35,744 nucleotides of DNA from Melioribacter roseus (GTDB taxonomy: Bacteria; Bacteroidota; Ignavibacteria; Ignavibacteriales; Melioribacteraceae). Made by a program: the position numbers and the translations under genes. Below the pieces are notes generated by a model. It saw nothing but the letters and a program-made list of their open reading frames with translations, was not told the origin of the DNA and did not search any database. Each line of letters starts with the position of its first letter. The first letter of the stretch is position 1. The stretch is from NCBI GenBank assembly GCA_020723165.1, contig DYJK01000028.1:1-35744 (forward strand). Reading direction: 5' to 3'. Positions 14,621 to 27,040 of the stretch are shown here, piece after piece.

Positions 14621-14653
14621 AAACCCGAAATCTTTACGAAGTCGGGTTTTTTT
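14621..14653 (-). terminator. original terminator of the tRNA-Thr gene, now separated from it (bidirectional)
   Basis: AAACCCGA (14621-14628) pairs with TCGGGTTT (14642-14649). T-runs follow on both strands (TTTTTTT on +, TTTTATTTTTTC on -). Before integration this would have directly followed the 3' end of the minus-strand tRNA-Thr gene; it now abuts only the tRNA fragment of the left attachment site. Confidence 0.75.
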
Positions 14654-14696
14654 GAGCTGGCGGACGGATTTGAACCGCCGACCGGCTGATTACAAA
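14652..14696 (-). repeat. attL: 45-bp copy of the 3' part of tRNA-Thr
   Basis: Identical, base for base, to 26996-27040. It contains the acceptor 3' strand, T-arm, variable region and anticodon stem-loop through the anticodon of tRNA-Thr(UGU), then stops abruptly at GGGGAGGG. This is the original 3' end displaced by the element. Its outer neighbours differ from those of the right copy, so the repeat limits are exact. Confidence 0.92.
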
Positions 14697-14777
14697 GGGG
14701 AGGGCTATCATAGCCAATTTCCCGGATTAAATGTGTATTCAAATAGTGAGTGCTTTTGTGGGTAATAGACCTACATT

Positions 14778-15797
14778 ATGTACTTAATAAAATATAAAAC
14801 TTCACCTTACTGGCAAGTTGTTTATAAACGCAATGGTAAAAGAACAAAAGTATCAACCAAAGAAAAAAAGAAATCTGATGCGCTCAGATTTCTATTAAAT
14901 TTTGAAGATAACCTTAAGAAAAAGTTAATCACTCCTATAATTTCTCTTCAAGATTTTAAGAAATCTTACATCAATTATTTAGAAATATCCAAATCAAGGA
15001 CCTATAAAAGAAGCGTAAAAGCTTCATTTGATGAATTACACAAAGCTGTAGGTGAAAGAACAATTAATAATATTACAAAACAAATTGCTGAATCTTTCGT
15101 TCTTAACAAATTTAAGGATTCAAAATATGTTGCTCATTCGCACTTAAGAAACCTTAAGGCAGCTTTCAATAAAGCTATTGAATGGAATTACATTCCGGTT
15201 AATCCTTTCGTAAGAATTAAACTTCCTACAATACCAACACCTATACCGGCATTCATTACTGAAATTGAACTAGAAGAAATTCTTGAAAAAACTAATAGTG
15301 AATTGCTTAAAGATATATTTGTTACTCTCTACAATACTGGTATGAGAGCTGGTGAAATATGTAACCTTGAATGGAATGATATCGATTTAGACAAACGGTT
15401 TATAAAAATAAGTAACAAAGAAGATTTCCTAACAAAGAATCGAAAGGAAAGGGTTGTGCCTATTAATGATAACGTAATGAAAATACTTGATAGAAGATTT
15501 CCCAAAATCATAAATATTAATTCAAAACAATATGTTTTTTACAGAGTGCTGGGGGTAAAGCTAAATGTTGATTATCTAAGTAAGAATTTCAAACGTGCTG
15601 TTAGAGCTGCTGGAATTGGTGACCAGATACACCTACACACGTTACGGCATTCTTTCGCATCATGTTTGGTACAGAAAGGTGTTAGTTTGTATGTAATCCG
15701 GGATCTGCTTGGCCATTCAGATTTAAAGACTACACAGATCTACAGTCACCTTCAGCAGCAAAACTTATTTGATGCAGTTAATCTGTTATCAAAATGA
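14778..15797 (+). CDS. int: tyrosine-recombinase integrase (element end)
   Basis: Site-specific recombinase expected to join the element to the tRNA-Thr gene. Complete catalytic set: Arg190 (TGMRAGE), Lys220, His287 and Arg290 (LHTLRHS), His313 (LLGHS) and nucleophile Tyr322 (TTQIYSH). The N-terminal 60 residues form an arm-binding type domain starting YLIKYKTSPYWQVVYKRNGK, followed by a SAM-like core-binding domain (about 57-150). Length 339 aa. ATG 14778 lies only 81 bp from attL, normal for an integrase. A short inverted repeat GGCTAT/ATAGCC (14703-14715 region) between attL and the gene may bind an accessory factor. It shows the same domain plan as the second recombinase at 19323. Confidence 0.94.
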   Translation: MYLIKYKTSPYWQVVYKRNGKRTKVSTKEKKKSDALRFLLNFEDNLKKKLITPIISLQDFKKSYINYLEISKSRTYKRSVKASFDELHKAVGERTINNITKQIAESFVLNKFKDSKYVAHSHLRNLKAAFNKAIEWNYIPVNPFVRIKLPTIPTPIPAFITEIELEEILEKTNSELLKDIFVTLYNTGMRAGEICNLEWNDIDLDKRFIKISNKEDFLTKNRKERVVPINDNVMKILDRRFPKIININSKQYVFYRVLGVKLNVDYLSKNFKRAVRAAGIGDQIHLHTLRHSFASCLVQKGVSLYVIRDLLGHSDLKTTQIYSHLQQQNLFDAVNLLSK

Positions 15798-15816
15798 ATT
15801 CAATCCATGTGAGTGA

Positions 15817-15892
15817 AATACCGGCGGTATATTTGTGAGCTGAGGGATAAAGCGAACAATTATACTTGAGCAAAGCGAGAAAAGCCGGTATT
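15817..15892 (+). other. structured intergenic element E1, nested stems after the integrase
   Basis: AATACCGGC (15817-15825) pairs perfectly with GCCGGTATT (15884-15892). Inside, GTATATTTGT (15827-15836) pairs with ACAATTATAC (15856-15865) except for one T-T mismatch. No T-run follows, so it is not a plain terminator. It may be a structured RNA leader, a small RNA, or a DNA site. The stretch 15798-16052 otherwise carries no gene I can support. Confidence 0.4.
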
Positions 15893-15967
15893 GAACATAA
15901 ACATAAAGTTAATTATGTAATACTGGCTGCCTATAGATTGATGAGCTGAAATTATACACATAAAAGG

Positions 15968-15996
15968 TTGACCTATTATTAAAATGGTCTTAAAAG
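15968..15996 (+). promoter_or_regulatory. weak candidate sigma70-type promoter with palindromic spacer
   Basis: TTGACC (15968-15973), 17 bases, TAAAAG (15991-15996; four of six consensus positions). The spacer begins and ends with GACC...GGTC symmetry, which could be an operator. It would start transcription of the operon headed by the HTH gene at 16053. The host consensus may differ, so confidence is low. Confidence 0.22.
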
Positions 15997-16052
15997 TGAT
16001 TTAATACACAATAGCACATAAATTATTAACTAACTAAGAAAGTGAGATAAGC

Positions 16053-16262
16053 ATGGAAAAATTCATTCCTCTATGGGAAAGAAGGAGATTAAAATTAACT
16101 CCTAGAATGAAAGAATACCTTTACCTGAAAAACAGAAATTACAAACACGCACAAATTGCTAGTATAATGGGTTTAAAAATATCATCTGTTAACTCTTTAT
16201 CGTATGAAACAAAACAGAGATTAAAAAACCTCCGATACTATGAGGAAATATCAAAAATGTGA
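16053..16262 (+). CDS. small helix-turn-helix protein, sigma region 4-like
   Basis: A 69-aa basic protein. Residues ~28-58 (YKHAQIASIMGLKISSVNSL then SYETKQRLKNL) look like the helix-turn-helix of sigma region 4 / LuxR-type proteins, where an 'xxIAxxMGxxxxSV' stretch precedes the recognition helix. No other domain is visible. It is likely a DNA-binding regulator of the element's early genes or an excisionase-like factor. ATG 16053 with AGTGAGATAAGC upstream is acceptable. It lies 7 bases before the small membrane gene and probably shares its transcript. Function is inferred only from the HTH likeness. Confidence 0.65.
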   Translation: MEKFIPLWERRRLKLTPRMKEYLYLKNRNYKHAQIASIMGLKISSVNSLSYETKQRLKNLRYYEEISKM

Positions 16263-16268
16263 GGTAGT

Positions 16269-16442
16269 ATGTTACTGATAAGAATATTTTTTTATTTATT
16301 CATTTGGATAATCTTTCTAATCATTTCAATGGTCGTAGGAAACTATAAAAAGAAATTCTTACTAAGCTTTTTACTTGGATTCTTTTTAGGACCGGTAGGA
16401 TTAATAATTTTATTCTTTATACCCAGAAAAGTAATTAAGTAA
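16269..16442 (+). CDS. 57-aa membrane protein with two transmembrane helices
   Basis: A small open frame starting at ATG 16269, with GAGGT six bases upstream, ending TAA at 16442. It encodes a hydrophobic segment (IFFYLFIWIIFLIISMVVG, ~6-24), a basic turn NYKKKF, then a second one (LLSFLLGFFLGPVGLIILFF, ~31-50) ending in PRKVIK. The layout fits a hairpin inner-membrane protein. The LGFFLGPVGLII motif occurs in many small membrane proteins of unknown function. In a phage-like element it could serve superinfection exclusion or helper interaction, but that is a guess. Confidence 0.6.
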   Translation: MLLIRIFFYLFIWIIFLIISMVVGNYKKKFLLSFLLGFFLGPVGLIILFFIPRKVIK

Positions 16443-16595
16443 AGGAGCAGCTCTAAATTGAATTAGCTTGAAAAATCATATTGATTTTATCATAACAGAA
16501 TCTTAGTTTAACTATTGACGATAACATAAAGCGGTGATCCTTCCCGATAGAAAGGAATTTTTATTTTAAATGATTCTGATATTTGATAATATAAC

Positions 16596-16671
16596 AAGCC
16601 TTGAGATTCCGGTATCCGTGAGGACCGGCGGTTACTTTATGTACCGCGTCAATCTCAAGGCTTTTTATTTT
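16596..16671 (+). ncRNA. structured element E2: three-way-junction RNA candidate with T-rich tail
   Basis: A 13-bp perfect outer stem, AAGCCTTGAGATT (16596-16608) with AATCTCAAGGCTT (16651-16663), encloses two hairpins: CCGG-TCC-GTGA-GGA-CCGG (16609-16627, GNRA-type GTGA tetraloop, two-base bulge) and GCGGT...ACCGC (16628-16647). TTTTTATTTT follows. It lies 24 bases before the SD/ATG of the next gene. It might be a terminating small RNA, an attenuator for the downstream operon, or a replication/packaging structure. No known family recognised by eye. Confidence 0.5.
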
Positions 16672-16694
16672 GACTAAAACATAAAGGAGTAATT

Positions 16695-17099
16695 ATGCAA
16701 AACCTAAAATCAAAACCAGTAAAAAATCTCTGTAGATTGAAATTCCAGAACAAAAATGGTTGTATTGATTCAGAAGTAATAGAAAAAAAAGAAATTGAAT
16801 CAGTTCTTTCTTTTGATTTATCGAGTATTAGAGAACATATTGACAATATTGTAGAAATAAGTCCATTAAGACCGGGAGATGGTTGGAAGATTAACGATTG
16901 TACTCAAAGAGCAAAGTTCATTCTTCAGCTTTTCGAAGAGCATTTTTCTTTTGCTATGGACAAGGTGTTAAATGTAAGAGAAGATAGTGCTTACTTTAAT
17001 AATGCTATAAAAACACTTGATAGCATTATTGATCAAATAAACATTGCAAAAGAAGAATTACAAATACATTTGAGTTATATAGATTTTAAAGAAGATTAA
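16695..17099 (+). CDS. unknown element protein (134 aa)
   Basis: No family recognised. Basic N-terminus (about 1-25, KSKPVKNLCRLKFQNK), then a helical acidic part with heptad-like leucines/isoleucines (FNNAIKTLDSIIDQINIAKEELQIHLS, ~100-128). The central stretch ISPLRPGDGWKINDCTQRAK resembles nothing I can name. No signal peptide or membrane helix. ATG 16695 follows an excellent AAAGGAG ribosome site and directly follows the E2 hairpin, so expression may depend on read-through of that structure. Probably a cytosolic accessory protein of the element. Confidence 0.6.
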   Translation: MQNLKSKPVKNLCRLKFQNKNGCIDSEVIEKKEIESVLSFDLSSIREHIDNIVEISPLRPGDGWKINDCTQRAKFILQLFEEHFSFAMDKVLNVREDSAYFNNAIKTLDSIIDQINIAKEELQIHLSYIDFKED

Positions 17100-17120
17100 A
17101 GCACATAATTAATTTTACTA

Positions 17121-17154
17121 ACCCACAGCAGAATAGAAATATTTTGCTGTGGGT
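17121..17154. other. hairpin E4 between two element genes
   Basis: ACCCACAGCA (17121-17130) pairs perfectly with TGCTGTGGGT (17145-17154) around a 14-base loop. No T-run on either strand, so intrinsic termination is unlikely. It sits 20 bases before the ATG of the Nu1-like HTH gene and would hide or expose that ribosome site if formed in RNA, or act as an operator. Confidence 0.4.
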
Positions 17155-17174
17155 AATTATTAAAAGGTGATGAA

Positions 17175-17543
17175 ATGAAAAAATCAGAATTATGTACTAC
17201 CCTCGAATTATCAAAGTTGTTTGGAATAACCCGTAGCGATGTAATCAAATGTGTTGCCGAGGGAATGCCGATTATAAAAAGGAATCAGTATAATTTTGTA
17301 GAATGCTTTAATTGGTACGCTGATAAGAAAAATCTTTCGATACATCCGGAGAGAGTTTATAAAATTAATATGGATTTTGTTGGAAGGAAATTTTTGCAAA
17401 TTGAACATTCTAAAGGAATAAAAATTTCTAATCAGGATAGCAAAGGTAGATTAAAAACAGCGCCAGGAGCTTGGGCAAATTTATTGAAAGAAGTCAAGCC
17501 GTTGCTAGATGGATTACGTTCTAAAAATAAATCTGTTGGCTAA
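17175..17543 (+). CDS. small winged-helix protein related to Nu1-type terminase small subunits
   Basis: 122 aa. The first ~50 residues (TTLELSKLFGITRSDVIKCV then AEGMPIIKRNQYNFVECFNW) follow the same pattern as the N-terminus of the element's small terminase at 21797 (NTTELAKILGITRRYVNILA, then GLPKKGRGKYDTSKAVPWF): a MerR/Nu1-like winged helix that reads DNA, followed by the 'ydl..avrWy' segment. The C-terminal half is basic and unrelated. It could be an excisionase, a repressor, or a second DNA-recognition subunit that retargets packaging. ATG 17175, SD AAAGG upstream. Two Nu1-like proteins in one small element are unusual. Confidence 0.6.
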   Translation: MKKSELCTTLELSKLFGITRSDVIKCVAEGMPIIKRNQYNFVECFNWYADKKNLSIHPERVYKINMDFVGRKFLQIEHSKGIKISNQDSKGRLKTAPGAWANLLKEVKPLLDGLRSKNKSVG

Positions 17544-17573
17544 TATTGATGTTGTAAATATAAAGGTGGCAGA

Positions 17574-18236
17574 ATGAAATTAAATGAATTTGAATACCTT
17601 GAGGAATACTCTGATGAGAAATTACAACAAGAAATTGATTTTACCAGAATAAGATTATATGACATACTTAAGAACATACGACCTGATCTATCCCTAGAAC
17701 TATACAACTTGGTTTGGAACATTCCAGCTTTGAAAGATCAACTCTTGAATGTCCCGGATTTAGATTACAAAAAGAAAAGGAAAGAAGAATTAAAACTCGC
17801 TGAGAAGAGACAAATCGAACTACAAATGAAGATTGAAAATCTTGATGAAGAATATAGGATGTTAGAAAGAAAATATAATTTCATTAGTGAATTAAATAAC
17901 GATAGAATATTAGGTCATGATAAAGACAAAATAAAAAAAGAATTAAAGGATCACAGAGATAAAAACAGTACAACTGAGTTAAAACATATTAAGTGGACAA
18001 AAAATATTAATCAGTTAGCAGTAGAAATTCTTGAGAAATACATAGAGGATCCTTCGAGGTATAGTTTTAATATTAGGGAAGTGATACAAATTGAATTACT
18101 GAAGTATGATTTTTTTACAAATCCAAATTTCAAAAGATGGACAACATTCAATTGCGTTGAAAAGATGTATCGTAATATGAAAAAATGCGGAGATATTTGG
18201 ACGAAAGCACAACAATTACCGGAAAAGTTACTGTGA
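17574..18236 (+). CDS. unknown element protein with central coiled coil (220 aa)
   Basis: No family recognised. Acidic N-terminal helix (MKLNEFEYLEEYSDEKLQQE), then a long charged helical stretch at about 65-125 (KKKRKEELKLAEKRQIELQM, then ENLDEEYRMLERKY) predicted to be a coiled coil, then a more globular aromatic C-terminus (FFTNPNFKRWTTFNCVEKMY). No membrane segment or signal peptide. ATG 17574 has AAAGGTGG eight bases upstream. Position between the HTH gene and the replication genes suggests an early function. Its 3' end leads into the GGAGAA repeat region, and a 33-codon frame starting at GTG 18233 overlaps its stop. Confidence 0.6.
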   Translation: MKLNEFEYLEEYSDEKLQQEIDFTRIRLYDILKNIRPDLSLELYNLVWNIPALKDQLLNVPDLDYKKKRKEELKLAEKRQIELQMKIENLDEEYRMLERKYNFISELNNDRILGHDKDKIKKELKDHRDKNSTTELKHIKWTKNINQLAVEILEKYIEDPSRYSFNIREVIQIELLKYDFFTNPNFKRWTTFNCVEKMYRNMKKCGDIWTKAQQLPEKLL

Positions 18237-18259
18237 AGTGTGAAATATCTACGCATCTT

Positions 18260-18318
18260 GGAGAAAACAAAAGGAATTTTGGAGAAAGGTTAGGAGAATT
18301 ATGGAGAAACATGGAGAA
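18260..18318 (+). repeat. five direct GGAGAA repeats
   Basis: GGAGAA occurs at 18260, 18281, 18293, 18303 and 18313; the last three are spaced 10 bp, one helical turn. The repeats lie in a gap (18237-18454) between genes. They could bind a replication, regulatory or packaging protein. A short frame from GTG 18233 (33 codons) also crosses them and would encode repeated G-E pairs, so they could instead be coding. Confidence 0.4.
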
Positions 18319-18347
18319 TGAAATGATTTAGTAGATTAACGATTTTT

Positions 18348-18445
18348 GCCACATGTTAAAAGTGGCCAAACATAATGTAAAAATTTTTAATCGGAAGCCG
18401 TTAGAGGTCATTGCCACTGCCTTTAACGGCTTTCTTAATTTTTGG
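18348..18445 (+). promoter_or_regulatory. structured leader E3 with mutually exclusive pairings
   Basis: GCCAC (18348-18352) can pair with GTGGC (18362-18366); AAGCCGTTA (18395-18403) pairs with TAACGGCTT (18424-18432), followed by TCTTAATTTTT, as in an intrinsic terminator. The loop of this second hairpin holds another GCCAC (18413-18417) that could take the same GTGGC, forming a pseudoknot or alternative fold. The next gene starts at 18455, so this looks like an attenuator-type leader or transcription punctuation. Confidence 0.4.
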
Positions 18446-18454
18446 AGTACTGCT

Positions 18455-19021
18455 ATGCCACAACAAGAAGCAAACGAAATACTTGAGTTACTATCTGAGA
18501 TTAGTGTTAAAGCTGATGAGTTAAAAGAGAAACTCAACAGTTATAAACCTGATGATGAGTTCGATCAAATAATGGTTGATTGTTTGAAAACATATCTCAA
18601 CAGTAATTTGTATCTGCTGCTTGAGACATATTCATACTACCATGATCACGTTAATGGCAAATCCCAAACCATCCCTTATGCTGAGTTGATGAATGCCGCT
18701 AATGCACTATTAGAATTTACAGAGAGAATAAAGAACGAAAAGAAACAGCCGGCTACAACCGAAGAAGAGCAATTAGCATGGACAAGTTTAGAACAGAAGA
18801 AAATTAAATATTCTATTTCTGTTGGTGATTTAATTAGTCAATTAAAAGCTTTTTCTCCTGATGCAAAGACATGGTTTGGCGGTTTGGACTTTAAAAGATT
18901 AAAACTACGTGACCACAATCTGCTGGATTTTGAATTTGCTCAGAACGTGTCTATAGGTAAAAATCGCAAAATAGTTGTGAATGAATTACTTGATGAATCA
19001 GAGCTGTACCCGGAAGAATAA
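18455..19021 (+). CDS. unknown element protein (188 aa)
   Basis: I start at ATG 18455, preceded by TTTGGAG; the longer open frame from 18353 would translate through the E3 hairpins. The protein has no recognised family: an acidic helical N-terminus (EANEILELLSEISVKADELK), a Tyr-rich middle (NLYLLLETYSYYHDHVNG, ~52-69) and a C-terminal part with SDLISQLKAFSPDAKTWFGG-like sequence (actual GDLISQLKAFSPDAKTWFGG, ~131-150). No signal peptide or transmembrane helix. It is followed 44 bases later by the 85-aa gene and then the second recombinase, probably one transcript. Function unknown. Confidence 0.55.
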   Translation: MPQQEANEILELLSEISVKADELKEKLNSYKPDDEFDQIMVDCLKTYLNSNLYLLLETYSYYHDHVNGKSQTIPYAELMNAANALLEFTERIKNEKKQPATTEEEQLAWTSLEQKKIKYSISVGDLISQLKAFSPDAKTWFGGLDFKRLKLRDHNLLDFEFAQNVSIGKNRKIVVNELLDESELYPEE

Positions 19022-19065
19022 AGACATTAGTAATCTGTAACAAAATACTTTAGGAGATGGGTGTT

Positions 19066-19323
19066 ATGCTAGAATCATTAAAACAAGTTAACGAGAAAAT
19101 AAAAGGGATTATTACTCAGATTGATGCAGTACAAAATGAACTGAGCATTTTAAAAACGCCGAACCGTAATGAAAATGAATTAGCCCAGATATTAGTTAGA
19201 AGAGTAAGCGCTGCCGGTGTAGAATTGATAGTTGCAAATGATATTATTTATGAAGCGGAGGAATGCATCGATGAGATAGAACTCCAAAATTTTATTAATG
19301 AATACTCCGGCGATGCAGCTTAA
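19066..19323 (+). CDS. small helical element protein (85 aa)
   Basis: ATG 19066 is chosen because AGGAG (19052-19056) lies at proper spacing; the in-frame ATG at 19057 would sit directly on that site. The product is a helical, coiled-coil-like protein (LKQVNEKIKGIITQIDAVQN at the start) ending in an acidic tail. No family recognised. Its stop TAA overlaps the next ATG by one base (TAATG), so it is translationally coupled to the second recombinase and may assist it, for example as a directionality or accessory factor. That role is inference from coupling only. Confidence 0.55.
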   Translation: MLESLKQVNEKIKGIITQIDAVQNELSILKTPNRNENELAQILVRRVSAAGVELIVANDIIYEAEECIDEIELQNFINEYSGDAA

Positions 19324-20378
19324 TGAATGATCCTTCCCAAATATTGTTAAGCAGTAATAATTCTGAGATTGAGAGCTCATTAAACCCTCAGCAAGTACAA
19401 ATGATTTCCAATATAGTTTCGCAGACTGTATATTCTTTACTGTCCAACAAAAGCATTCTTACTAATCTTATTCAATCGAACACCGGTAATAAACCATTAG
19501 GCGAGGCATTCAATGAATATGAGAACTATCTTAAAGGTACTGGTTACTCCGATCAGTACCAACGCTCTGTAAAAGCTACATTAAATAAAACAGTAAAATT
19601 CTTTAATGAAAACACTCCTCTAAAAAATATTTATGTAAGACAAATCGAGGAGTTTATAATACAATTAATGAAAAGTATGCCTAGAGGTTATAGAGTTCAC
19701 TTTAGAAATTTAAAAGCGTGTTTCTCAAAGCTGGTAGCATGGGGTCACATAAACAACAGCCCCTTCACAAAAATAAAATTACCAAAGATGCAGAAACAAG
19801 AAAATGTTTATGTAACACGCGATGAATTGAACACGATAATTTCTAAAACCACACACCCGGTAATGAAAGAAATGTTCTTGTTTGCGTTTCTAACAGCTTT
19901 ACGCCTTTCTGAAATTACTAACCTGAAGTGGAATGAAGTAAAATTAGCTGAGGGTATTATAACAATTGGAAGTGCTGAATTTATAACCAAGACTAGAAAG
20001 ATCCGGCAGATCCCCTTGGTTGATGAACTGATAATAATGTTAAGGAACAAATCCAAAATAATGAATATTGATGGTTATATTTTTTGTAAGGCTGATGGCA
20101 AAAAGTATACTGATGACTTTGTTAGTAAATCATTTAAACGAGCATTAAGAAAAACAAATCTTGATCAACATACCCATTTCCATTCTCTCAGGCACTCGGG
20201 GATAAGCTTTATGTTAAACAACGGTGTGCCGGTAAACGTAGTAAAAGAGATCGCCGGACATTCTTCAATAGCAGTAACAAATATTTACACACACACCAAT
20301 CTTGATGAGTTAAAGAATGCAGTAAAATTATTGAACAATAAAAATAATTTTAAAAAAGCTGAGAGTAACAATGGCTAA
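19323..20378 (+). CDS. second tyrosine recombinase, internal to the element
   Basis: Complete catalytic residues: Arg194 (TALRLSE), Lys223, His287 and Arg290 (FHSLRHSG), His313 (IAGHSS) and Tyr322 (TNIYTH). It aligns end to end with the integrase at 14778 in its core-binding and catalytic domains (YQRSVKATLNKT versus YKRSVKASFDEL), but the first ~58 residues are different and rich in Ser/Asn/Gln. No second pair of attachment sites is obvious. Roles to consider: resolving multimers of the replicating element, an inversion system, or a leftover of a second integrated element. It overlaps the replication gene by 8 bp, tying it to replication. Confidence 0.88.
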   Translation: MNDPSQILLSSNNSEIESSLNPQQVQMISNIVSQTVYSLLSNKSILTNLIQSNTGNKPLGEAFNEYENYLKGTGYSDQYQRSVKATLNKTVKFFNENTPLKNIYVRQIEEFIIQLMKSMPRGYRVHFRNLKACFSKLVAWGHINNSPFTKIKLPKMQKQENVYVTRDELNTIISKTTHPVMKEMFLFAFLTALRLSEITNLKWNEVKLAEGIITIGSAEFITKTRKIRQIPLVDELIIMLRNKSKIMNIDGYIFCKADGKKYTDDFVSKSFKRALRKTNLDQHTHFHSLRHSGISFMLNNGVPVNVVKEIAGHSSIAVTNIYTHTNLDELKNAVKLLNNKNNFKKAESNNG

Positions 20379-21099
20379 TGTTGAATGGCTCAAAATATAT
20401 GTAGATTTATTCGATAATAGGAAATTCAGATTGTTGGAAATAGAGAACCCAAAAGACGGAGATCTGTGTATTGCGATCTTTTTCAAATTACTTGTTATGG
20501 CTGCACGAATGAACGGGTTTGTATGCTTTAATGAAGACAAATCATATACAAAACAACAGCTATCTAATTTACTCAACCGAAATCAAAAACAAGTTGAAAG
20601 AGCTTTAAAGTTGTTAAAACAGTATACACTAATTGATGATATTGGCAAAAAGAACTTTATTAAAATTCATGGATGGGACAAATATCAAAATAGTGAAGCG
20701 ATAGGAGAGATAAATAGAATTGGACGAGCTGCATACATGAGAGAATACCGGAAAAAGAGAAAAGAGGGACAGCAAACAAAGGAAACTGGAGATAATTCAA
20801 CCGATAGTGATGTTACAAGTAATGTTACGCGTGATATTACGAGTAATGTTACGGATGATGAGAGTAACAATACAGATAAGAATAGAACAGAGAAAAAAGA
20901 AAATAGTAGAAGAAGAAGTAAAGAAGACGAAATAAGAAAGGCGGTCCTTAAGAAGAAAAAATCTCTCGATACTATAAAAGATAAAATTTCTATCAATGAT
21001 TACAACTATCTAAAAAATCTTCTTGATAAGAAAAAACTTGATGAATTTAACGCTGAATACATGAAGCTCATTCAAGAAATCGAATCAATAGATAAATAG
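20371..21099 (+). CDS. phage replisome organiser / replication initiator
   Basis: The N-terminus VEWLKIYVDLFDNRKFRLLE, then NPKDGDLCIAIFFKLLVMAA and YTKQQLSNLLNRNQKQVERA, matches the phage replisome-organiser N-terminal domain (winged helix that binds the origin and recruits host helicase). Residues ~125-170 are basic then polar, with a tetrapeptide repeat VTSN-VTRD-ITSN-VTDD encoded by the iterons, and the C-terminus is charged and helical. Length 242 aa. ATG 20371 overlaps the recombinase end. This gene would let the element replicate after excision. The layout, origin inside the initiator gene, is that of lambdoid phages (gene O). Confidence 0.8.
   Translation: MANVEWLKIYVDLFDNRKFRLLEIENPKDGDLCIAIFFKLLVMAARMNGFVCFNEDKSYTKQQLSNLLNRNQKQVERALKLLKQYTLIDDIGKKNFIKIHGWDKYQNSEAIGEINRIGRAAYMREYRKKRKEGQQTKETGDNSTDSDVTSNVTRDITSNVTDDESNNTDKNRTEKKENSRRRSKEDEIRKAVLKKKKSLDTIKDKISINDYNYLKNLLDKKKLDEFNAEYMKLIQEIESIDK
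20811..20858 (+). repeat. four 12-bp iterons inside the replication gene, candidate origin
   Basis: Tandem units start at 20811, 20823, 20835 and 20847: TGTTACAAGTAA, TGTTACGCGTGA, TATTACGAGTAA, TGTTACGGATGA; consensus TGTTACRMGTRA. An inverted GTAAC follows at 20864-20868. Exact 12-bp period is also four codons, so the protein shows a matching repeat. Downstream sequence (20870-20960) is A- and purine-rich, as in a lambda-type origin beside iterons. Confidence 0.6.
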
Positions 21100-21120
21100 A
21101 AATTAGATTGTGGTGATAAG

Positions 21121-21672
21121 TTGATCGGTATAAAACATAATATTAATGAAGCAGTAAAAGCATTTAAGAATATGCAGCAGAGTGTAGTTAAAGCTGAATT
21201 ATCTGCTAATAAAAAGGTTGCAAAGCAAGTAGTTACTGAGATTGTTAAGAATGCACGCGAGAGGTATTCTATAAAAGCTTCTGACTTGAAAGATTCAATT
21301 GATGTTAAACACGGAACCGGTAAGAAAGTTACTGCACGGATAGTTATTTCAAACAGAAGAATTCCTCTAATCAAATTTAATGCTAAACCTACAGCAACCG
21401 GTGTGAGTGTAATGGTATTACGAAGTAGAAGAAAAATTATAAAGGGCTCATTTATCCCGGTCCTAAAAAGCGGTCATGTAAATGTATTTGTTAGAAAACG
21501 TGTAGGTAGTATACGTGTACATCGTTTACCGATAAAACAGCTTTATGGTTTATCGGCTGCTAAGATGTTAGTTAATGAAAGAACAATGCAGATTGCTGCA
21601 AATAAAGTATTCGAAAAATTTGACGAGATATATGCACATGAACTTGAATATTATCTTAATAAGAAACCTTAG
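21121..21672 (+). CDS. prophage minor tail protein Z-like protein
   Basis: Resembles the lambda gpZ / minor tail protein Z family, which acts late in tail assembly near the head-proximal end. Telling segments are RSRRKIIKGSFIPVLKSGHV (~101-120), NVFVRKRVGS, and LPIKQLYGLSAAKML (~138-152; the family usually has LPIxxLxGPS). The N-terminal ~60 residues are helical and basic. Length 183 aa is close to the family's. TTG 21121 is used, with GGTGATAAG upstream; ATG 21172 is an alternative that drops 17 residues. Unusually it precedes the terminase genes, whereas in siphophages it follows head genes. It suggests the element affects tails as well as packaging. Confidence 0.75.
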   Translation: MIGIKHNINEAVKAFKNMQQSVVKAELSANKKVAKQVVTEIVKNARERYSIKASDLKDSIDVKHGTGKKVTARIVISNRRIPLIKFNAKPTATGVSVMVLRSRRKIIKGSFIPVLKSGHVNVFVRKRVGSIRVHRLPIKQLYGLSAAKMLVNERTMQIAANKVFEKFDEIYAHELEYYLNKKP

Positions 21673-21676
21673 CATA

Positions 21677-21796
21677 ATGGATTTTGGGTCCTTTCTCGAT
21701 CTTTTTCTTGAACGGCTGGCTCCGACGCCTCGAATTTGTATTCTGGGTGATAAGCTAGAAGATGATTTCCCGTTCCCATTTTTAGGTATAAATTGA
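21677..21796 (+). other. 39-codon frame or packaging-site region before the small terminase
   Basis: ATG 21677 to TGA 21796, whose stop is immediately followed by the ATG of the terminase gene. The predicted peptide (MDFGSFLDLFLERLAPTPRI ... DDFPFPFLGIN) resembles nothing known. The stretch 21700-21740 is much richer in G+C than its surroundings. In lambda the cos site lies just upstream of the small terminase gene, so this block could be the element's packaging site instead of, or as well as, a peptide. Evidence is positional only. Confidence 0.3.
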
Positions 21797-22363
21797 ATGG
21801 ATGTAAATACTACAGAGCTAGCAAAAATACTGGGAATTACAAGGCGATATGTAAATATACTTGCTGATAAAGAAGGTTTACCAAAAAAGGGACGTGGGAA
21901 ATACGATACATCTAAAGCAGTACCCTGGTTCATTGAATTTGTTAAAGCTGAAATAGAAAAGAAGTACAAGAAAAAACTTGAGAAAGTTAGTAGTGCGGAT
22001 CCACAGACAAGGCTTAATAATTACAGAGCTGATGAAGCATTATTAAATTTATTGGAAAGACAAAGAAAACTTATACCAGTTGATGAACAACTTCAAGTAT
22101 GGAAAAATGAGACGCTTTCGATCAAAAGGGAATTATATGGGATCCCCAATAAAATATCTCATAAATGTTTAACAGCACAATCGAAAAACGAAATAAATGA
22201 AATTTTAACTCATGCTATCAATAATGCATTAGAAAAATATGCAAATGGAACAATCGACATACCCCCAGCCAATACCTGGGACAATAATTTACCAGACACT
22301 TTACAGAATGGTAACAGACCTGAGAACATATCTCAGACCGAAGCCAAGAATAAGCGTAAGTGA
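21797..22363 (+). CDS. terminase small subunit, Nu1-like
   Basis: DNA-recognition subunit of a cos-type packaging motor. The N-terminal winged helix NTTELAKILGITRRYVNILA ... GLPKKGRGKYDTSKAVPWF (4-47) is typical of lambda Nu1 and related proteins. The following LNNYRADEALLNLLERQRKLIPVDE (~73-97) matches the 'R..a..AeL.e..rrg.lv' linker of the family, and the rest is helical (large-subunit binding). Length 188 aa is normal. ATG 21797. The large-subunit gene begins inside its 3' end, the usual arrangement. A second Nu1-like winged helix is found at 17175. Confidence 0.85.
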   Translation: MDVNTTELAKILGITRRYVNILADKEGLPKKGRGKYDTSKAVPWFIEFVKAEIEKKYKKKLEKVSSADPQTRLNNYRADEALLNLLERQRKLIPVDEQLQVWKNETLSIKRELYGIPNKISHKCLTAQSKNEINEILTHAINNALEKYANGTIDIPPANTWDNNLPDTLQNGNRPENISQTEAKNKRK

Positions 22364-24197
22364 ATGGGTTGAAAAATACCGGTATTTATCGCCTGAAGAT
22401 TGTGAGAACCCCGGGCAGTGGAGTTTTCAAGGTTTTGAATATCTAAGAGGATTTATGGATGTTTTTAATGATCCAACGGTGAAGATGATTACAGCAATAA
22501 AATCAGCGCAGACTGCTTTTACTCAAGCGGCATTGAATATGATTGGGTATATAATCGACATACAGCCAGGACCTATTCTTATTGCTTATCCAACTGAGGG
22601 AAGTGTAAAAAAATTCTCGAAAAGGAAATTAAATCCCATGCTGAGGGATACATCAGTTTTAAGTGGAAAGGTTTCTGAACCTCGTAAACGTGATGGTGAT
22701 AATGCAATTTTGGAAAAATCTTTTCCCGGCGGATTTATATCAATGATTGGTACTAATTCACCTAATGCCCTCAGCTCACAGAGTGTACAATACTTATTCA
22801 TTGATGAATTAGACAGAATTCCTTTTGAAGCTGGATTTGAGGGTGATACTATAAAGGTATTACAGAAAAGACAACAAGGATTTTCAAATTATAAGTGTGT
22901 GGTAATATCAACTCCAACAATAAAGGGAATAAGCAGAATTGAAGATTCATTTGAAAAATCTGATCAACGATTTTATTTCGTTCCTTGTCCGCATTGTAGT
23001 CATTTTCAAACACTAAGATTTGAAAACTTGAAAGGTTGGAGGATTGATAAAGGATTGTACGATTTAGAAAACACATATTATGAATGTGAGAATGAACAAT
23101 GTAAAGCTGAGTTGAGAGAAAGAGATAAATTTTACATGGTAGAAAATGGAGAATGGAGAGCACAAAAACCGGAAATAAAAGATCATGCCGGGTTTTTCAT
23201 TAATGAGTTATATTCTCCTCTTTCTACTTGGGCAAATATTGTTAAGCAGTTTATAGACGCAAAAAATAATCAGCTAAAATTAAGAAGCTTCAAAAATCTT
23301 GTATTAGGTGAAGTATGGGAAGATATGACAACAAAGGATATGGATTCAAATGAACTAATGAAAAGATGTGAGCATTATGGACCTGAATTACCTAATAGCA
23401 TAGCAATTTTAACTGCCGGTGTTGATGTCCACGATGATCGTTTAGAAATAATTGTAAAGGGATGGGGATTGTTTGAAGAGAGTTGGTTAATTGATTATAA
23501 AATATTACGTGGTGATCCATCAACAAATAAATTATGGATTGATTTAGACCAGACGCTTTCGAAAGCGTATCCTCACACCTTTGGAGCCTCACTTCTTATA
23601 TCTGCTGTTTGTATCGATGCAATGGGCCATTTCACACAGCAAGTTTATAATTATACAAAACATGATGCTCGTAAGAAAAGAAGGATATATGCTATTTACG
23701 GAAAGAGTGGTGATAATCTTCCTATTATAAATTTTCATCCATCACAAACAAGAAAGGGAAATTCTTTTGCTGTGGGTGTTGATACTGCTAAAGAATTAAT
23801 CTATTCAAGATTATCAATTACTGAGTTTGGCCCGGGTTATATGCACTTTCCGTATGAAGTTTCAATTGATCGGCAAACCAAGAAAGGATTTGTGATAGAT
23901 AAAGAGTATTTCGAACAGTTAACATCTGAAAAACTAATTACGTTATATGATAAGGGAATTCCAAAAAGAATTTGGAAAAAGTTAAGAGCCAGGAATGAAG
24001 CTCTTGATCTTGAAGTGTATGCAACTGCGGCATATTACACACTGCAACTTGATGAACATAGAATATCAAAAATTTTGGAAGATATTAAATACAAATCAGA
24101 ATTATTGAAGAATCCGCCGGATAAAAAGGAAAATGAACAAAAACCGATAAGTGTTTATAAAAATAATTGGGTTAACAGCTGGCGTGATGGATTTTAA
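22239..24197 (+). CDS. terminase large subunit, GpA family
   Basis: ATP-driven DNA translocase with nuclease that cuts concatemers. SVSEWVEKYRYLSPED (39-54) and the following region match lambda gpA. The Walker A-like IKSAQTAFTQ has Lys88, Walker B reads YLFIDELD with Asp189-Glu190, and the coupling motif is VVISTPT (221-227). A zinc-finger-like set is C250PHC253 ... C283-x4-C288. The nuclease acids are Asp396 (TAGVDVHDD) and Asp460 (AVCIDAMG) with a later DLEVYATAA. So it appears fully active. ATG 22239 aligns best with lambda gpA's N-terminus; 22245 and 22308 are alternatives. It overlaps the small subunit by 125 bp in another frame. No portal gene follows, which is exceptional. Confidence 0.92.
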   Translation: MQMEQSTYPQPIPGTIIYQTLYRMVTDLRTYLRPKPRISVSEWVEKYRYLSPEDCENPGQWSFQGFEYLRGFMDVFNDPTVKMITAIKSAQTAFTQAALNMIGYIIDIQPGPILIAYPTEGSVKKFSKRKLNPMLRDTSVLSGKVSEPRKRDGDNAILEKSFPGGFISMIGTNSPNALSSQSVQYLFIDELDRIPFEAGFEGDTIKVLQKRQQGFSNYKCVVISTPTIKGISRIEDSFEKSDQRFYFVPCPHCSHFQTLRFENLKGWRIDKGLYDLENTYYECENEQCKAELRERDKFYMVENGEWRAQKPEIKDHAGFFINELYSPLSTWANIVKQFIDAKNNQLKLRSFKNLVLGEVWEDMTTKDMDSNELMKRCEHYGPELPNSIAILTAGVDVHDDRLEIIVKGWGLFEESWLIDYKILRGDPSTNKLWIDLDQTLSKAYPHTFGASLLISAVCIDAMGHFTQQVYNYTKHDARKKRRIYAIYGKSGDNLPIINFHPSQTRKGNSFAVGVDTAKELIYSRLSITEFGPGYMHFPYEVSIDRQTKKGFVIDKEYFEQLTSEKLITLYDKGIPKRIWKKLRARNEALDLEVYATAAYYTLQLDEHRISKILEDIKYKSELLKNPPDKKENEQKPISVYKNNWVNSWRDGF

Positions 24198-24219
24198 TTA
24201 AACTAAAAAGGTAGTGAAG

Positions 24220-24504
24220 ATGAATAATAACAACCAATATGAAAATGAGAAAGTAAAAATTAAGGGAGAAAGAAAAGTTTTAGAATTACCTTTGCTTGAA
24301 TTAGTATTAATGCTTTCTCAAAAAATTATCCATCTTGAAGCAACACAAAAAGTAATGAATGAAAAGTTCTTACAATTGCTGAAGGTTGTTATAAAAGATA
24401 CAGTACACGAAAACAATCTTGAAAAGATTATGAGTCATATTAATAATGAAATTGAGGTAGAGAAATCAAAAATTATAAATGAAATTATCCAGCAGCATAA
24501 ATAA
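24220..24504 (+). CDS. small coiled-coil protein before the tape measure (94 aa)
   Basis: Start ATG 24220, eight bases after AAGG; GTG 24214 is a poorer choice. Mostly helical: LLELVLMLSQKIIHLEATQK (~26-45) then QLLKVVIKDT and a charged tail ending NEIIQQHK. It shares layout with the 81-aa gene on the other side of the tape measure (FNEFIVQKLIDIEAKLQWQN ... AEIIKRYT): a helix of similar heptads, a middle KxxxxKD stretch and an 'xEII' end. The pair may be diverged duplicates acting as tape-measure chaperones, like lambda gpG/gpGT, which also lie just before the tape-measure gene. Family not recognised. Confidence 0.6.
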   Translation: MNNNNQYENEKVKIKGERKVLELPLLELVLMLSQKIIHLEATQKVMNEKFLQLLKVVIKDTVHENNLEKIMSHINNEIEVEKSKIINEIIQQHK

Positions 24505-24515
24505 GGAGATTTGTT

Positions 24516-26489
24516 ATGGCAAACAAAGGTATAGTAAATACAGTAACACTTATCATAGACGGCAAAAACAATTCAGTAAGTGCAATTAAGTCCGCAGAGG
24601 GTGACATTACCAAATTATCAGATTTAATTAAAAATACCGGTTTGAGTGTAGATTCACTTGGCGGTGCACTTGGTAAAATGTTTGCCGGTTTTTCAGTGGG
24701 CTGGGCTGCCAGTGAACTATTTCAATTCATGAAAGGTGTTATTAACACTGCTGATGAATTATATAAAATGTCTCAAAAGACTGGTATCAGTGTTGAATCC
24801 TTATCCACCTTAAGATATGCAGCTGATTTGAGTGGGGTGGAATTAGAGTCTTTTGAATCTTCAATTATAAAATTTAATAAAGCAATTTATGAAGCAGAGG
24901 ACGGGAGTGGAGAAACTGCAGAAGCTTTCAAAAAACTCGGTATAAATTTGAAAGACTCTAATGGAATTTTAAAAGATGCAGAGCAATTATTCTTTGAAAC
25001 TTCCGATAAACTATCCGTAATGGAAGACGGTACACAGAAAGCAGCTCTCTCTTTGAAATTGTTCTCGAAGTCTGGTGCTGATATGATTCCCTTATTGAAT
25101 GAAGGGACTACCGGGCTTAATAAATTAATGCAAGAAGCTCGTAATCTTGGAATTGAAATGTCTACAAATACAGCAATGCAAGCGCAAATGTTCAATGATC
25201 AATTAACTACATTAAAGTATCAAGCTGAAGGTATAGCAGTTGAAGCATTACCGGGGTTATTAGATGAACTCTCTGAGATTGCATATTGGTTTCAAAATTT
25301 CAACTGGGAAAATTTTTGGAGAGTGATGGTCCTTTGGGAAGAACCAAAAGGATTTTCTGAATGGAAGAAAAATGCTGCAGAAGCTGCGAAAGCCAGAAAT
25401 GAACAATTGCAAAAGCAGAATGAAATTAATGCTGCAAAGGAAAAAGAAGAAATTCTTACACAAAACCAGTTAAGAATGCAAAAAGCTCTCAGTGACGGTT
25501 GGCGTGAACAAAAACTAATCATCGTTAATGAGCTAATTGGAAATGGAATCGATAAAACTACGATCGCTTTCTATCAATTGATGAATAATGTAGAAGCCCT
25601 GAAAGAAAAATATAAAGGTATTCCCGAAAGTCAGAAGATCCTCAATTCCTACGTTGAAGAATGGATGTTGCAAAATGATATAATGAATAATACTAACCTT
25701 CCATCTTTATTAACCAAAATGAATTTGTTAAGCGATAAATTTGGCACGATACCGGCAGCACTAGAACTAGCAAATTTTTACGCTGATCAGTTAGCACAAA
25801 AAGCCGGCAAGATGTATGGAAGTGATGATGTTACTCCAACCGGACCAGAAAGAATGCCTGGGCAAACCAACCAACCAATAAAAACATTATTACCTTTACC
25901 GGATATGGAAGAAATTATGAAAAGATTCCATATAATTGAAGCAAGATCCACAGAGGTTACCGCTGGTATGACCTTAGAGTTTTTAGTTCTAGAAGGTGTT
26001 ATATCTAATTCACTTGGAAATATGGCATCGGCAGCGGAAATGGCATTTGTCGGATTTGGTGAAAAGAATCGTGCATTCTTTGAAGCATACAAAGCATTCG
26101 CTGTAGCTCAAGCTTTAATTGACACATATACTAGTGCCAATGCAGCTTACAAAGCTATGGCGGGAATTCCATTCTTCGGACCAGTACTGGCTGCCGCTGC
26201 TGCAACAGCAGCTATTGTCTATGGTTTAGGAAATGTTGGGCGGATTGCATCTTTACAACCAGGTTCGCGCGGCAGCGGCGGAGGATCGGCAAGTACGCCA
26301 GCTCTTCATATTCCAAGTTATAATAATTCTCAAGTAATTAACAACAATACACAAACAGATAATACTAAAACAGTAACCATTCACATACATTCATACGGTG
26401 GGTATGGAAGCGATGCTGACCGGGAAGTAAGAGAAAGACTTGCGCCAGCGATTAACCGAGCTTACCGGGATGGTGTATTTGATTTTTAA
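24516..26489 (+). CDS. phage tail tape-measure protein
   Basis: Sets tail length and is ejected with the DNA. The N-terminal part (VNTVTLIIDGKNNSVSAIKS, GWAASELFQFMKGVINTADE, then YKMSQKTGISVESLSTLRYA, ~76-95) is typical of tape-measure proteins. The centre is a long alpha-helical region, and a C-terminal hydrophobic segment GIPFFGPVLAAAAATAAIVY (~549-568) is followed by a Gly/Ser linker and a His-rich beta-like end (VTIHIHSYGGYGSDADREVR). 657 aa would mean a tail of roughly 100 nm by the usual 0.15 nm per residue. ATG 24516 has AAGGAGA upstream. It is the largest gene of the element and looks intact. Confidence 0.88.
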   Translation: MANKGIVNTVTLIIDGKNNSVSAIKSAEGDITKLSDLIKNTGLSVDSLGGALGKMFAGFSVGWAASELFQFMKGVINTADELYKMSQKTGISVESLSTLRYAADLSGVELESFESSIIKFNKAIYEAEDGSGETAEAFKKLGINLKDSNGILKDAEQLFFETSDKLSVMEDGTQKAALSLKLFSKSGADMIPLLNEGTTGLNKLMQEARNLGIEMSTNTAMQAQMFNDQLTTLKYQAEGIAVEALPGLLDELSEIAYWFQNFNWENFWRVMVLWEEPKGFSEWKKNAAEAAKARNEQLQKQNEINAAKEKEEILTQNQLRMQKALSDGWREQKLIIVNELIGNGIDKTTIAFYQLMNNVEALKEKYKGIPESQKILNSYVEEWMLQNDIMNNTNLPSLLTKMNLLSDKFGTIPAALELANFYADQLAQKAGKMYGSDDVTPTGPERMPGQTNQPIKTLLPLPDMEEIMKRFHIIEARSTEVTAGMTLEFLVLEGVISNSLGNMASAAEMAFVGFGEKNRAFFEAYKAFAVAQALIDTYTSANAAYKAMAGIPFFGPVLAAAAATAAIVYGLGNVGRIASLQPGSRGSGGGSASTPALHIPSYNNSQVINNNTQTDNTKTVTIHIHSYGGYGSDADREVRERLAPAINRAYRDGVFDF

Positions 26490-26500
26490 TTGGAGGATAA

Positions 26501-26746
26501 ATGAATAATGAAGAAATAGTAAACTTCAAGATCCCACCTGAAAGGTTTAATGAATTCATTGTACAAAAACTCATTGATATTGAAGCAAAATTACAATGGC
26601 AGAATAATCAAATAAATGGGATTGTCATATTACTTAAGAATAAGGATGAAAAATTCAACGTGATCGAATATGTAAAAAATTCTAAAGAAGAAATCAGAAA
26701 TATTCGGTTAGAAATAATTGCAGAAATAATTAAGAGGTATACTTAG
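26501..26746 (+). CDS. small helical protein after the tape measure (81 aa)
   Basis: ATG 26501 follows a strong TTGGAGG site 11 bases after the tape-measure stop, so the two are co-transcribed and likely co-translated. The product is helical and charged (ERFNEFIVQKLIDIEAKLQW, then QNNQINGIVILLKNKDEKFN, ending EIIAEIIKRYT). No signal peptide, membrane helix or known family. Its plan resembles the 94-aa gene on the other side of the tape measure. It is the last credible gene before the right attachment site. Possible tail-assembly helper; function unknown. Confidence 0.6.
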   Translation: MNNEEIVNFKIPPERFNEFIVQKLIDIEAKLQWQNNQINGIVILLKNKDEKFNVIEYVKNSKEEIRNIRLEIIAEIIKRYT

Positions 26747-26956
26747 GGTTGATTATTTGATTTCACTTCGATAAGTTCAAAATCGAAAAAGCAGAAAAGT
26801 TCGCAAATGATAAAAGTTTCTTTACAAAGAGAAAGCTGGATCGATTATAGGGATTGCGAACCCCTTTGCTTGTCGATACAGCTTTTTCATTTTAAACCTA
26901 CAAAAACACTCGGTACATTTTCGGTACACATTAATCAGAGGGACATTAAAAAACAC
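26747..26956. other. non-coding right end of the element, with CGGTACA repeats
   Basis: No credible gene (a 62-codon frame at 26807 lacks a ribosome site and runs into the tRNA terminator). It holds two direct CGGTACA copies at 26911 and 26922, 11 bp apart, and a TTCGCAA/TTGCGAA inverted pair around 26795-26870. Being 70-90 bp inside attR, these are plausible arm-type sites for integrase or an excision factor. Confidence 0.35.
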
Positions 26957-26993
26957 AAAAAGAAAAGCCCCTATATCTTTCGATTTCGGGGCT
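26957..26993 (-). terminator. element-supplied terminator for tRNA-Thr
   Basis: On the minus strand, AGCCCC (26993-26988) and GGGGCT (26971-26966) form a stem around GAAATCGAAAGATATA, followed by TTTCTTTTTGTG. It lies immediately downstream of the reconstituted tRNA-Thr and replaces the original terminator left at 14621-14653. Confidence 0.7.
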
Positions 26994-26995
26994 AA

Positions 26996-27040
26996 TTGAG
27001 CTGGCGGACGGATTTGAACCGCCGACCGGCTGATTACAAA
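26996..27040 (-). repeat. attR: 45-bp copy inside the intact tRNA-Thr
   Basis: Exact duplicate of 14652-14696. It covers the tRNA from its anticodon loop to the 3' end plus three bases. Crossover inside the anticodon-loop to 3'-end segment is the usual choice of tRNA-targeting tyrosine integrases. Flanks differ at both sides (A versus T before, T versus G after). Confidence 0.92.

Follow-up and report, generated by a model that had tools for sequence, protein, structure and literature searches.

A probable C4-type antisense RNA with two-part target sites before a 134-aa gene in a small phage-like element

Results

A stable three-way-junction RNA fold in a small tRNA-Thr-integrated element

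The DNA analysed here (the window) is a 35,744-nucleotide stretch from Melioribacter roseus. The RNA of interest sits in a small phage-like element of 12.4 kb that is integrated at tRNA-Thr and is flanked by perfect direct repeats. Its genes encode two tyrosine integrases, a replisome organiser, the small and large terminase subunits, a neck/tail-completion protein and a tape measure, while no portal or capsid gene was recognised among the element proteins scanned and the element gave no DNA match among phages. The large terminase led us to the viral contig L003 (14.4 kb) and the genome locus L009, with 76% identity in this protein. Much of the gene set recurs in both (elements of 12-14 kb), which suggests a genuine small satellite-like element and not a prophage in decay. 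The features of the element and of the RNA are as follows.

14652 to 27040, no strand: host element with 45-bp perfect direct repeats at 14652-14696 and 26996-27040 (3' part of tRNA-Thr)
16570 to 16677, + strand: 35-codon leader open frame through the RNA, also at the same place in L003 and L009
16596 to 16608, + strand: 5' arm of stem P1 of the putative C4-type RNA (fold, covariation)
16609 to 16628, + strand: P2 hairpin, nearly invariant, with a GNRA loop (fold, relatives)
16629 to 16646, + strand: P3 hairpin, variable and covarying (fold, relatives)
16651 to 16663, + strand: 3' arm of P1 (fold, covariation)
16662 to 16671, + strand: T-run after P1, terminator-like (sequence)

The three-way junction of the original prediction was recovered exactly as described. 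A perfect 13-bp stem P1 (16596-16608 / 16651-16663, AAGCCTTGAGATT / AATCTCAAGGCTT) encloses two hairpins, CCGGTATCCGTGAGGACCGG (P2, 16609-16628) with the GNRA-type loop GTGA and CGGTTACTTTATGTACCG (P3, 16629-16646), and is followed by a T-run that reaches 16671. The minimum free energy (MFE) of 16590-16680 was -33.9 kcal/mol, whereas 200 dinucleotide shuffles of the same segment averaged -16.85 (z -5.78) and none of them was equally stable. The end of the T-run is separated by 23 bases from the next ATG at 16695. The RNA does lie inside the 250-base gap reported earlier, but this gap also contains the 35-codon open frame at 16570-16677.

The RNA is closest to the Rfam family c4-2

As the best Rfam match, the window copy (80 bases) gave 37.3 bits (E 3.4e-7) against RF02944 c4-2 (clan CL00128), which is below the curated cut-off of 41 bits. 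The copies in L003 (39.1) and L043 (38.9) also scored below this cut-off, and it was passed by seven places in six of the 20 loci given to Rfam. At gathering thresholds Rfam listed only tRNA and not the RNA of interest, a search of 331 bases at E up to 10 gave nothing, RF01695 (C4 of P1/P7) was unlisted for the window in the Rfam searches, and blastn of the RNA against phages produced weak matches only. The comparison with known RNA families suggested by the original prediction did lead to a related family, with the window copy just under its cut-off. The c4-2 model shares the three-way fold and size of the window RNA but has extra unpaired bases inside P1. The family reportedly goes back to a 2017 paper and is, in the sources consulted, a predicted one.

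Detailed knowledge of C4 RNA comes from two E. coli phages. Like the predicted window RNA, the C4 of phages P1 and P7 has about 77 nt and a P1-P2-P3 fold. The C4 of phage P1 likewise carries one antisense segment (b') in the P3 loop and another (a') in the P3-P1 junction, and its targets are arranged as in the window, with a1-b1 upstream and a2-b2 at the next ribosome-binding site; TTGAC is the a-site core common to both. Accordingly ordered features a1, b1, c4, a2 and b2, with icd behind, are annotated in the phage P1 record AF234172. The a-to-b spacing differs, being 3-4 bases on both sides in the window and 7 and 22 in P1 by the record coordinates. Unlike P1/P7 C4, the window RNA has a T-run directly after the P1 stem. 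Its 5' arm starts with AAGCC and lacks the GGW motif, which is described in excerpts of PMC5320573 as the RNase P site at the 5' end of the C4 P1 stem. The same excerpts report C4-like sRNAs of Acinetobacter baumannii that share the C4 fold and a variable targeting loop with the window RNA; those sRNAs are expressed, occur in many copies per genome and are processed from longer transcripts, whereas the genome of the window holds a single copy. With high probability, the window RNA belongs to the C4-type antisense RNAs; its nearest family is c4-2, of which it falls formally just short.

Relatives of the RNA covary in P1 and P3

In both L003 and L009 the RNA is found at the corresponding position; CCGGTATCCGTGAGGACCGG is identical there, and P1 and P3 have changed on both strands. 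Public DNA was scanned with the P2 GNRA hairpin alone, P1 and P3 being outside the search patterns, and the scans matched 31 viral stretches (16-mer), 22 viral loci and 33 bacterial loci. A covariance model was built from seven copies and applied at E up to 0.001. The first MAFFT alignment had misplaced the 3' arm in two rows; the second was made without L013 and L035, and the model recovered both of them. The complete fold was matched in 25 of the 33 bacterial and 17 of the 22 viral loci, as well as in 8 of the 31 stretches of the 16-mer scan. The other 8 bacterial and 5 viral loci had no model match at this level, and many P2-pattern matches without the fold look like coding stretches.

For the counts of covariation and leader frames, identical RNAs were merged into 47 distinct rows, with L054, L060 and L062 (model matches resembling L053) outside this later set. 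All 12 pairs of P1 and all 7 pairs of P3 showed changes on both sides, and 93.6% of the cells were paired. The covariation score was 0.703, compared with 0.168 after shuffling and at most 0.123 when the structure was slid; fitting the alignment to the structure works in favour of the score, but a one-column slide lowers it to 0.12. The original prediction would have been contradicted by relatives without stem-preserving substitutions, and compensating changes in the outer stem were found instead. The conserved segment might also be explained by a structure at the level of DNA or by constraint on the 35-codon frame, as the frame is open and is kept in L003 and L009. The GNRA loop and the stem-preserving changes nevertheless point to RNA, and the reading frame of the hairpin differs among relatives (PVSVRT versus GIRKDR), so that we find this explanation barely credible.

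Record titles of the bacterial matches include Desulfovibrio, Desulfobacterales, Fibrobacter and Bacteroidales. Within the phylum of the window the model matched 3 of 395 genomes, its own included; therefore the RNA is rare there. In the own genome, covariance model R1 matched one copy.

The P3 loop and the P3-P1 junction match two-part sites on both sides

The P3 loop CTTTATGT and the junction CGTCAA(T) are complementary to TTGAC..ACATAAAG sites that flank the RNA on either side; the second site lies over the ribosome-binding site of the next gene.

16515 to 16520, + strand: site a1, TTGACG (ATTGACG from 16514), complementary to a'
16524 to 16531, + strand: site b1, ACATAAAG, complementary to b'
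16635 to 16642, + strand: antisense loop b', CTTTATGT, complementary to b1/b2
16647 to 16652, + strand: antisense junction a', CGTCAA, between P3 and P1, complementary to a1/a2
16670 to 16674, + strand: site a2, TTGAC, by complementarity; the leader frame stops just after it
16679 to 16686, + strand: site b2, ACATAAAG, by complementarity, overlapping the Shine-Dalgarno sequence AAAGGAG at 16683-16689
16695 to 17099, + strand: 134-aa gene, putative target, with b2 over its ribosome-binding site

All eight positions of b' form Watson-Crick pairs with the downstream site b2, which covers the start of AAAGGAG before the ATG of the 134-aa gene at 16695. The upstream pair is present as well, with ATTGACG and ACATAAAG at 16514-16531 complementary to CGTCAAT and CTTTATGT. 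Among 100,000 trials with dinucleotide-shuffled flanks, the a-b match of the window was reached in 0.24% on the upstream side and in 0.15% on the downstream side. In the 3.8-Mb genome, the pattern TTGACN{0,25}ACATAAAG occurs at the two sites, in the complement of the RNA itself and at one other place. The predicted pairing amounts to -12.6 kcal/mol for site 2 (a2-b2) and -18.4 kcal/mol for site 1 (a1-b1), and shuffled sites paired equally well in 42 and 9 of 2,000 cases, respectively.

The loci L009, L003 and L044 have other loops and, matching those loops, other sites. This correspondence was evaluated by permutation among 46 non-redundant members, of which the model supplied 38 and Rfam searches 7, P1 being the last. 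Near-duplicates were removed at a ratio of 0.8, and the window, as a near-duplicate of L009, is absent from the 46; L037 and L072:440, for which MFE gave no separate P3, were left out of the loop and site tests. The complementarity of b' to its cognate flank exceeded that of permuted pairs both upstream (16.24 versus 13.36) and downstream (15.24 versus 12.69), each with 0 of 20,000 permutations. For a', the values were 10.02 versus 8.34 upstream (0/20,000) and 10.28 versus 9.16 downstream (3/20,000), the a2 signal being the weakest of the site signals. Under a stricter two-part rule, whose thresholds were chosen after the permutation results were seen, 10 of the 46 cognate pairs had both sites, compared with 7 of the 2,070 non-cognate ones, and 25 of 46 against 142 of 2,070 had either site. 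Neither two-part site criterion was passed by 24 of 60 members, which means either that not all members share the layout or that the thresholds were set too strictly.

These results also bear on a simpler reading, in which the structure is an elaborate intrinsic terminator or attenuator before the 134-aa gene and the match between the loop and the Shine-Dalgarno sequence is incidental. The T-run directly after the 13-bp stem would suit it, and many relatives have a T-run after the stem too. But the sequence of P2 is nearly invariant across unrelated phages, a constancy that a terminator would not require (P2 was also the search pattern); moreover, the loop and the sites co-vary, and the two-part sequence is repeated upstream of the RNA. 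We therefore regard a mere terminator as quite improbable.

The gene behind the RNA changes among relatives

Neither Pfam nor PHROG gave a match for the 134-aa protein, no antirepressor domain was recognised in it, and a protein search found no relative of it in viral contigs or in 57 other related genomes. A 57% identical homologue lies behind the RNA in L009. A different gene stands at this position in L003, where no homologue of the 134-aa protein was found; hence the RNA cassette stays while the gene behind it changes. Antirepressor domains occur in downstream genes of other loci, namely Bro-N (L063, L073) and AntA (L017). The remaining downstream genes scanned comprise one integrase and one resembling the end of phage primases, otherwise with no assignment. 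In contrast to P1/P7 C4, the putative target in the window is thus no known antirepressor.

Leader frame and promoters

An open frame that starts upstream and runs through the RNA was detected in 22 of the 47 members, against 21% for shuffled upstream sequence, and was missing in 25 by the test used. Short frames through the RNA were also seen in L003, L009, L037, L040 and L095; in many cases they stop at the following start codon or overlap it. Of the 47 members, 12 have sigma-70-type promoters upstream of the RNA, compared with a null mean of 0.29, while the window has no such match on the + strand between 16250 and 17200. A promoter just before P1, suggested by TATAAC-like letters in close relatives, was discarded, since these letters are part of the leader frame and those 12 members have their clear sigma-70 promoters further upstream. 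A terminator suspected from the letters at about 16537-16560 did not appear in the terminator prediction.

Discussion

From the directly observed fold, its covariation, and the two-site complementarity that co-varies with the loop, we infer transcription of the leader, release of the RNA, repression and immunity. The likely explanation is that translation of the 134-aa gene is blocked by a C4-type antisense RNA encoded in the element. The leader transcript would contain, in order, site 1 (a1-b1), the C4-type RNA, site 2 (a2-b2 over the ribosome-binding site) and the 134-aa gene. By analogy with phage P1, b' in the P3 loop and a' in the P3-P1 junction would pair with site 2 and block translation. 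In a cell carrying the element, the 134-aa gene would stay off, also on a newly entering copy, and the same transcript would be adjusted upstream through pairing with site 1. In phage P1, full repression of ant needs the C4 antisense RNA, according to excerpts of PMC8198154, PMC8546580 and PMC12197685.

The original prediction had offered a small regulatory RNA of the element or an attenuator of the 134-aa gene. The former agrees with the stem-preserving substitutions in relatives. The latter is correct in part, since the RNA probably targets this gene and is shaped like a terminator at its 3' end, but a plain attenuator does not fit: the specific signal lies in the antisense match to two flanking sites, which resembles C4 of phage P1.

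The same complementarity could also operate in cis only, as a leader switch in which the loop and junction pair with a site on the same molecule (pseudoknot or alternative fold) and no free RNA is made; ribosomes on the leader frame 16570-16677 would unfold the RNA and so set the switch. The P3/junction strand could indeed pair with site 1 or site 2 at the energies given above, and the excess of open frames over shuffled sequence is in line with it. However, the frame is missing in more than half of the members, the isolated fold is far more stable, and the P1 C4 is described as trans-acting in excerpts of PMC8546580. We give this reading little chance.

An extension of the antisense reading that we consider unlikely is that the leader frame makes the RNA a self-locking switch and the C4-type RNA a gene-swappable immunity cassette beyond antirepressors. 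C4-type RNA covering site 1 would keep the leader frame untranslated, so that the RNA would fold and terminate and more C4 RNA would be made; in its absence, ribosomes would cross and unfold the RNA and the gene behind would open. If this holds, the switch in the window would control an uncharacterised regulator of 134 aa within a minimal packaging element.

For c4-2-like RNAs, the two-part target sites that co-vary with the RNA provide a concrete and testable function. Such sites are spread over phages and prophages from widely differing bacteria, and they would make the target gene readable from sequence.

Some minor observations concern the number and arrangement of copies. A weak model match with an odd junction (L032:10528-10606) lies close 3' of an apparent tRNA 3' end and may be due to chance. 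Tandem head-to-tail C4-type RNAs were seen at L072:363-512, L061:6377-6530, L067:7244-7397, L058:1611-1775 and L100/L106; in the L072 tandem, inspection by eye suggests that both loops have their matches close by in the same leader. Within the phylum of the window, three genomes of a single genus (G125, G254 and G258; loci L098-L111) hold 6, 3 and 4 c4-2 RNAs, respectively, several of them with matching sites on both sides.
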